Source: an uncultured Chloroflexota bacterium (GTDB lineage Bacteria > Chloroflexota > Chloroflexia > Chloroflexales > Chloroflexaceae). Taken from it: a stretch of 64,000 nt of DNA. How positions within the stretch are numbered: position 1 is the first letter of the stretch; each line of letters begins with the position of its first letter. The position numbers and the translations under genes are program-made. Below, one piece after another: positions 21,321 through 23,515 of this stretch. The DNA lies in the NCBI GenBank assembly GCA_937120965.1, contig CAKZKA010000038.1:1-64000 (forward strand), written 5' to 3'. The notes under the pieces were generated by a model. That model searched no databases. It saw only the letters and a list, made by a program, of their open reading frames with translations, and had not been told where the DNA came from.

Positions 21321-21902
21321 ATGAGTGGATCAACCGATACCGTCCGGGAAACCATCATCGCCGCGGCGGCGCGACTCATTGTGACCCAGGGCTACGACGG
21401 GGTGGCCATGCGCGAGATCGCCGAGGCAGCGGGGATCTCCAAGCCCGGCCTCTACTACCATTTCCGTGACAAGGAGGACCTGCTGGAGGCCGTGCTGACG
21501 CACTGGATCGCCGAGACCGAGGCGCTGGTGGCAGCGGCGCGCCAGGCCCCCGGCGCGCGCGCCCGCTTGACCATTCTGGTGCGCGGGCTATTCGCCCAGG
21601 CCCCGCTCCAGCGCGCGCTCATCCGCCTCGGCACGCAGGATCTCCCCCGCCTGGGTGACGCCACCCGCGAGCGTATCCGGGATTGCTACGCCAGTGGCTT
21701 TCTGGAGCCAATCGAGGCCATCTTCCGCGACGGGGTAGCGCAGGGTGAGCTGCGAGCGGTCAACCCCCATCTGACAACCTGGCTGCTACTGGGGATGCTC
21801 TACCCGTTCTTTCATACCGACCATCCCTGCGCCCGCCTGGCCGATGAGCATACCGCGACGCAGATCGTCGAGACGCTCCTCGATGGCATCGCAGCGCGCT
21901 GA
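21321..21902 (+). CDS. TetR/AcrR family transcriptional regulator
   Basis: 193 aa, AAGGAG before the ATG. The N-terminal helix-turn-helix is standard (TIIAAAARLIVTQGYDGVAMREIAEAAGISKPGLYYHFRDKEDLL, about residues 10-54). The C-terminal ligand domain is diverged and helical. Members bind palindromic operators as dimers and release them on binding an inducer. The perfect palindrome at the MFS promoter 1.8 kb upstream is the probable target (inference). Both genes point the same way but are separated by a repeat cluster. Confidence 0.92.
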   Translation: MSGSTDTVRETIIAAAARLIVTQGYDGVAMREIAEAAGISKPGLYYHFRDKEDLLEAVLTHWIAETEALVAAARQAPGARARLTILVRGLFAQAPLQRALIRLGTQDLPRLGDATRERIRDCYASGFLEPIEAIFRDGVAQGELRAVNPHLTTWLLLGMLYPFFHTDHPCARLADEHTATQIVETLLDGIAAR

Positions 21903-21904
21903 TG

Positions 21905-22410
21905 TGAAAATAGGGAACCCGGGGTTCCCCACGCCCCTGCCTGGGGGGAGGGTTTGGGAGGGCTGCGCCCTCCCAAGAAAAACCTATGTTCATCGTGTCG
22001 TTGTGCGGCGCAGCCGCATGGATGACTGAGGTGAAAATAGGGAACCCGGGGTTCCCCACGCCCCTGCCTGCTGGGGCGCCAGGCGCCCCCAACGGCGGTT
22101 GGGGTGTGGGGAAACCGGGTTTCCCCACACCCCCTCCCTGAGGGGAGGAGCCCGGTTCCCTCCCCCAGCGGGGGAGGGCCAGGGAGGGGGCGGCCCTCCC
22201 AAAGATACCCCATGTTCATCGCGGCGTTGTGCGCCATGCGCATAGGGCCTGAGGTGAACATATGGGGAAACCCGGTTTCCCCATCCCCCTGCCTGTGGGG
22301 GGTGCTAGCCGCTCCCAACAGCGGTTGGAGAATGGGGAAACCGGCTTTCCCCAACCCCCTCCCCAAAGGCAGGGAGATAGGGAAACCGGGTTTCCCCATA
22401 TGCTCACATC
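21905..22410. repeat. Mixed dispersed repeat cluster
   Basis: Five GGGAAACCNGG-type palindromes (about 21908, 22040, 22108, 22262 and 22335-22395) alternate with CCCTCCC hairpins and with the GCGCCATGCGCATAGGGCC block. No gene. The cluster ends directly at the ribosome binding site of the next gene, so the last hairpin must be part of its leader or lie over its promoter. Confidence 0.85.
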
Positions 22411-22421
22411 AGGAGGATATT

Positions 22422-23249
22422 ATGAGTGACTTTGACTGGCTGCGTCAGCGCCTGGAGAGCGCGTTTGGCCAGTTCCTCTCGCAGGCGCCCGAGCTGGCGC
22501 GGCTCTGGGGGCAATGGTTCGATGCCGTCGAGGGCGAGCCAGTGCCGCTGGCGGCGCTGGAGAAGCCACTGCGAGAGGTGCGGCTGGCCCTGGTAACGAC
22601 CGGCGGCGTGCATCTGCGCGCCCAAACACCGTTCGACATGCGCGACTCGCACGGCGACCCCAGTTACCGGGTGATCCCTGCCGATACGCCCGTGAGCGAG
22701 CTCATGATCACCCACGACTACTACGACCACTCCGACGCCGAGCGCGACCTGAATATCCTGTTTCCGCTGGAACTCGCGCGCGAACTGGCCGCCCGCGGCG
22801 CTATCGGCAGCCTTGGAACCTGTTACAGCTTCATGGGGCACATTGAGCCGCCCCACGTCGAGACGCTGATCCTCCAGACCGCGCCCGAGGTGGCGGCGAT
22901 GCTGCGGCAGGAGCAGGTTGACGCGGTGTTGCTCACCCCTGCCTGAGGTCTCTGTAATCAGTCCGTGGGACTGATCGCCCGTGTCATCGAGAGTGTCGGC
23001 ATCCCGACCGTGTGCGTCATCGGGTTGCGCGAGATTGCCGAGCGAGTGCGCCCGCCACGCGCCATTCATCTGAAGTGGCCCTTCGGCCATCCGCTGGGAG
23101 AGCCGGGGAACCGGGCACAGCAACTCTGCGTGATCTACATCGCGTTGCAGGCCCTCTACACCGTGCGCGAGTCGGGGACGATCATCGATCCAGGCTGGCG
23201 CTGGCGCCGCGAGGAGTATGAGGAACCGGATCGCTGGGATCTTCCTTGA
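22422..23249 (+). CDS. GrdB/PrdB-like selenoprotein B family protein with in-frame UGA
   Basis: 275 aa if the TGA at 22944-22946 is read as selenocysteine (residue 175). AGGAGG lies five bases before the ATG. The N-terminal 174 residues end in DAVLLTPA. The frame then continues without another stop as UGLC-NQSVGLIARVIESVGIPTV up to 23249. UGLC is a UxxC redox motif. The segments VRLALVTTGGVHLR, TPFDMRDSHGDPSYRVIP, TITHDYYDHSDAERDLN-like and PFGHPLGEPGN fit the glycine/sarcosine/betaine/D-proline reductase selenoprotein B family, where this position is Sec or Cys. Ordinary gene callers would truncate it. No partner reductase subunits are nearby, so the substrate is unknown. Confidence 0.82.
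22944..22975 (+). promoter_or_regulatory. UGA codon with SECIS-like stem-loop
   Basis: The stem ATCAGTC/GACTGAT (22957-22963 and 22969-22975) closes a CGTGG loop; a C-G closing pair can extend it to 8 bp with loop GTG. The stem starts 11 nt after the UGA and the loop lies about 18-22 nt after it, with G and GU in the loop. This position and loop content fit bacterial SECIS elements that bind SelB. There is no experimental support. Confidence 0.6.
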
Positions 23250-23404
23250 GGACGGCGCCGCGCCACGAAGTTCTCGCAGGAGGCGCAGGGAACCCGAGGC
23301 TGCCCCGCCCCCTCCACCCGCTTGCCAGGTAACCCAACAGCGGTTGAGGTGTGGAGAAACCAGGTTTCCCCACACCCCTGCTCAAGCGCGCCCGAACACC
23401 TTAT

Positions 23405-23515
23405 CCTGGTGGTTTGTCAACCAGGTTGGGATGGGTAGTTTTTTGCCGGGAGGGCTTCGCCCTCCCACGCCCCCTCCCGCCACGTTCATCACAATTATCG
23501 TGGCAGACCACCAGG
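23405..23515. mobile_element. MITE-like element B, copy 2 (111 bp)
   Basis: Ends CCTGGTGGTTTGTC and GGCAGACCACCAGG. The interior is nearly the same as copy 1 at 13118-13226. It sits in the convergent gap between the selenoprotein and korC. The adjacent 23517-23552 is one copy of the short AATCTACAATCTAAAATGG repeat. The gap has no gene. Confidence 0.75.

Follow-up and report, generated by a model that had tools for sequence, protein, structure and literature searches.

The window analysed here (the whole stretch of 64,000 nucleotides) carries on its forward strand a gene of the GrdB/PrdB superfamily for a predicted selenoprotein of 275 residues, and from sequence comparison we infer with very high confidence that selenocysteine (Sec) is inserted at its in-frame UGA (22944). 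The decoding would be carried out by SelB and tRNA-Sec, guided by a SECIS hairpin that lies within the coding sequence and has its loop G at +22. The following features define the gene.

22422 to 23249, plus strand: coding sequence of the 275-residue PrdB/GrdB-like selenoprotein (translation, homologues, and purifying selection 5' and 3' of the TGA)
22411 to 22416, plus strand: AGGAGG ribosome-binding site, 5 nt 5' of the ATG (sequence)
22944 to 22946, plus strand: in-frame TGA, predicted Sec175 (TGA in 30/30 at the order level; TGA or TGC/TGT in 112/112 phylum-wide)
22953 to 22955, plus strand: Cys178, the second position of the UGLC (UxxC) motif (alignments; Sec at this position in the UPIU subfamily)
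23247 to 23249, plus strand: TGA terminator of the selenoprotein gene, codon 276

The predicted selenocysteine codon and its conservation

The ATG-initiated frame contains a single internal TGA, at codon 175, and translation through it gives LLTPA-U-GLCNQSVGLIAR around this codon. Standard ORF calling breaks the selenoprotein gene into two pieces, with a first product stopping at 22946 and a separate 94-aa ORF with a GTG start (22965 to 23249). This outcome had been predicted by the first-pass annotation and was reproduced here.

A protein search against 82 genomes of the order gave a match in 37, with homologues of the same family at 62-94% identity, and 30 loci were fetched. TGA is present at the same codon in all 30, including those of the single-contig genomes G007 and G009, and the protein similarity reaches the C terminus. 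Of 400 phylum genomes searched with a profile, 100 had matches. Together, the order, the phylum and three proteobacterial loci provided 112 homologues spanning the site, where the codon is TGA in 91, TGC/TGT in 21 and a codon for any other residue in none. The first-pass annotation had claimed that the TGA interrupts a continuing coding frame and places UGLC at the redox Sec or Cys position of the family, and both claims are borne out by the 275-codon frame, by the conservation of the 30 order homologues on both sides and by the 112 aligned codons. Homologues ending at the TGA, or having Trp or another residue there, had been named as evidence against Sec; the homologues extend past the site and align Sec or Cys exclusively.

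In comparisons with three members of the genus, pN/pS was 0.14-0.27 for the part 5' of the TGA and 0.07-0.12 for the part 3' of the hairpin, and four more distant relatives gave 0.26-0.37 downstream. From codon 186 on, values of 0.07-0.37 were thus obtained against seven of eight relatives; the remaining one, of Herpetosiphon type, gave 0.49 downstream, with synonymous sites near saturation. By these ratios, the sequence 3' of the TGA is evidently under purifying selection. Because TGA is kept in 30/30 order loci, pN/pS is low on both sides and all 112 homologues have TGA or Cys, a chance TGA is excluded.

It is therefore very improbable that the TGA is a true stop between two separate genes, the mark of a pseudogene or a sequencing error. 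The second half does have a GTG start at 22965, but this GTG is the loop of the SECIS hairpin described below, the same TGA recurs throughout the order loci, single-contig genomes included, purifying selection persists 3' of it, and the Cys homologues have an uninterrupted frame across the site. Still more improbable is a reading of the TGA as tryptophan or through non-specific read-through, since the aligned residues are Cys or TGA and never Trp, and both a SECIS and the Sec machinery are present. Genome-wide reassignment of TGA is likewise disfavoured, because the selenoprotein gene itself terminates with TGA.

One genus (g159) holds both the Sec and the Cys forms in near-identical contexts, UPLCHRTV in L144 and L145 and CPLCHRTV in L123, which suggests a recent exchange between Sec and Cys within a single genus. 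TAA or TAG stops in three phylum matches were considered as non-UGA Sec codons and rejected because of their position 138-141 codons 5' of the site, close to where the match begins.

A predicted SECIS hairpin in the coding sequence

The predicted SECIS element lies just 3' of the Cys178 codon.

22957 to 22975, plus strand: SECIS apical hairpin, AUCAGUCC-GUG-GGACUGAU (folding, synonymous invariance of codons 180-185, and covariation)
22965 to 22967, plus strand: hairpin loop GUG, at +22 to +24 from the U of the UGA

In the 30 order loci, codons 180-185 (CAG TCC GTG GGA CTG ATC) are nearly invariant synonymously. TCC is found in 30/30, though it makes up 7% of the Ser codons in these genes, and GGA in 28/30, though it makes up 7% of the Gly codons; CTG is kept in 30/30. 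Across 88 distinct Sec-type sequences, the core pairs, six in number, are formed in 88% of cells, and 61 of the sequences have all six; across 19 Cys-type sequences the figure is 52%, and none has all six. These cells are counts of sequences and not of independent events. The pairs covary (columns 18/28 are GC in 54, CG in 15 and TA in 12), and the pairing signal is lost when the hairpin register is shifted. The case is a comparative one, as the stability of the window hairpin alone is not unusual against shuffled sequences (z -0.03 and -0.90).

A conserved G in the apical loop is described for bacterial SECIS elements in a figure legend (PMC2398784, Fig. 7 legend), and the window hairpin has a G in its apical loop just downstream of the UGA. 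By position, loop and covariation, this hairpin qualifies as a bacterial SECIS, predicted within the coding sequence. In five other loci (L156 and L160-L163, of the UPDCC[RSA]NVPVLAR class), there is no hairpin in the usual register and apparently one a few bases further downstream.

Selenocysteine machinery of the genome

The first-pass annotation had recommended a search for selA, selB, selD and tRNA-Sec and had regarded a lack of selB or tRNA-Sec as decisive against Sec. All four were found, with tRNA-Sec scoring 70.4 bits (anticodon TCA), selB 347.9 bits, selD (L019) 369.8 bits, and selA 404 bits plus a second overlapping piece at the end of another contig. Since the two selA pieces (L017 and L018) lie at the ends of two contigs and share 25 residues, they are most likely one gene cut by the assembly and not a broken gene.

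The selD gene has an in-frame TGA of its own, in the context CAG-U-ASK, and this Sec-type selD would be a second selenoprotein of the organism. In this single sequence, its TGA is not accompanied by the hairpin of the window gene. Presence of tRNA-Sec was tried as a discriminator between Sec-form and Cys-form genomes and was rejected, since most Cys-form genomes have tRNA-Sec too; a few draft Sec-form genomes had no tRNA-Sec at the threshold used.

Family placement and structure

The Pfam model PF07355 (GRDB) matches at 32.7 bits against a gathering score of 22, and the best named model is TIGR04483 PrdB (E 8e-49, 166.1 bits, residues 43-256), whose curated cut-off of 300 bits is not reached. 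The GrdB, GrdF and GrdH models (TIGR01917/01918; selenoprotein B of glycine, sarcosine and betaine reductase) give 47.6-56.6 bits against NCBIfam cut-offs of 602-800. These models are of about 430 aa, and a full-length match is not attained by the 275-aa protein, which matches their C-terminal half, Sec region included, and lacks the N-terminal half. The cut-offs of the UGSC family are not reached (NF041046, 12.4 versus 125 bits; PF24696, 12 versus 25 bits). In a diverse alignment of 51 members, every sequence matches the same five models and no others. By these profile scores, the protein is a member of the GrdB/PrdB superfamily and not any named enzyme. The label 'GrdB/PrdB-like' in the first-pass annotation thus holds at the superfamily level, and a named D-proline or glycine reductase is not warranted. 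PrdB shares with the window protein homology over the matched region, the Sec position, the UxxC motif and a similar length; the window protein differs in its score, in having no detectable PF09338 partner and in its motif, UGLCNQSVGL.

In the AlphaFold model, all 275 residues form a single domain of high confidence (pLDDT 95.1, pTM 0.93), with Sec175 and Cys178 between the strand at 168-172 and the helix at 178-191. Neither the sequence search nor the fold search gave a significant relative among solved structures.

The pyruvoyl partner and possible function

D-proline and glycine reductases employ a pyruvoyl subunit of the GrdE/PrdA type. GrdE is homologous to PrdA (PMC9751293). PF09338, the profile for this partner, has no match in 41 genomes of the order (the source genome and 40 relatives), a result to be read with the reservation that a PrdA-type protein that has diverged may escape this profile. 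The window protein thus also differs from GrdB, GrdF and GrdH in that no GrdE family member was detected in its genome. As a positive control, the same search found PF09338 in 9 of the 400 genomes of the phylum. In seven of the nine (G099, G140, G257, G290, G310, G325 and G379), a match adjoins a longer-class match of the PrdB/GrdB family, and the six such genes read (all but that of G257) have UGT[CG] at the site. In one of these genomes (L173, G140:C216), three GrdB-like selenoprotein genes form a cluster, with a PF09338 gene beside each.

We consider it unlikely that the window gene encodes a genuine subunit of D-proline reductase (or of glycine, betaine or sarcosine reductase) with a pyruvoyl partner located elsewhere or strongly diverged. 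The top named model is PrdB and the UxxC motif stands at the same position, both of which would fit such a subunit, but the scores fall below the PrdB and the GrdB/F/H cut-offs, PF09338 is absent from the source genome and the 40 relatives searched, and where it occurs in the phylum it adjoins the longer UGT[CG]-class selenoprotein instead. PF04723 (GrdA) likewise had 0 matches in the genome, in a search without a working positive control.

Because the pyruvoyl partner is not detectable, we favour a stand-alone role, and from motif and family the protein is probably a Sec-dependent oxidoreductase distinct from D-proline and glycine reductases. In the mechanism that we would guess from the motif, the selenolate of Sec175 would attack an electrophilic substrate, Cys178 would then resolve the intermediate as a selenenyl-sulfide, and a cellular thiol reductant would reduce the latter. 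A broader proposal, which we put forward tentatively, is that those PrdB-like proteins of Chloroflexota that lack the partner, the majority with Sec, may form an undescribed class of stand-alone selenoenzymes that, in phototrophic and aerobic bacteria, act on neither proline nor glycine but on another substrate; the UPIU subfamily would be included.

Relatives with two predicted selenocysteine codons

The UPIU subfamily, in which two TGA codons are nine bases apart, was found in seven genomes (loci L185-L191 in G052, G053, G348, G455, G478, G481 and G482) from six genera and four families of the class; a reversed control pattern gave 0. The proteins show pairwise identities of 75-88%, and proteobacterial relatives (L086-L088) have Cys at both positions (CPIC).

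The hairpin loop of these genes begins at +30 from the first UGA and at +21 from the second. Measured from the second UGA, GU then falls at +22/+23, which matches the spacing of the window gene, and in L189 the stem is preserved via paired changes. This spacing puts the single predicted UPIU hairpin in register with the second UGA. These relatives provide a natural test of one SECIS serving two near-adjacent UGA codons. They resemble the UxxU selenoproteins (Prx-like, metal-binding/putative mercuric reductase, and FmdB; PMC13188914) in having two Sec per redox motif, while those proteins belong to other families. The same 2026 review gives PrdB and GrdB with one Sec, as UxxC only (PMC13188914).

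Relation to earlier surveys

Catalogues have listed PrdB-like selenoproteins from 2005 onwards, and the kind is already known. According to the text available from the two marine surveys, 42 PrdB-like UxxC selenoproteins in the Sargasso Sea (PMC1088965) and 235 in GOS (PMC2398784) were treated as proline reductase. These are UxxC proteins of the PrdB family and, by their description, probably the same broad group as the window protein. They differ in being called proline reductase, and Chloroflexales, the missing partner and UPIU are not described in the available text of either survey. In the corresponding text of a survey from 2006, Chloroflexi are credited with three selenoprotein families, which are left unnamed (PMC1794560), and the C. 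aurantiacus genome paper (PMC3150298) has no word beginning with 'selen'. In the open-access literature searched, no description was found of the Chloroflexales occurrence, its SECIS or the missing partner. A group of proteins that selenoprotein surveys call 'D-proline reductase PrdB' occurs across a bacterial order with no detectable pyruvoyl partner. With a cultivable host, its selenium dependence and substrate would be directly testable.

Gene neighbourhood

The gene upstream of the selenoprotein in the window is as follows.

21321 to 21902, plus strand: TetR-family regulator (gene clusters c18/c19 in L053, L054 and the window)

Within the genus, the genes for an MFS transporter, the TetR regulator and the selenoprotein keep this order, and Pfam TetR_N and MFS_1 were matched on the L053 and L054 orthologues. 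The neighbours are DUF547, ATP-grasp and periplasmic binding protein genes in Chloroflexus-type genomes and histidine kinase and adenylate kinase genes in Herpetosiphon-type genomes. A conserved neighbourhood was considered as a functional clue and was rejected, since the neighbours vary by genus and there is no shared partner.

In one locus (L066), two different Sec-containing PrdB-like genes, of the UGLC and UPLC classes, share a strand and are about 1.4 kb apart, with a PNP_UDP_1 gene between them. In the window itself, the regions 21900 to 22410 and 23280 to 23480 are intergenic and densely filled with palindromic REP-like repeats (GGGGAAACCGGGTTTCCCC and relatives).
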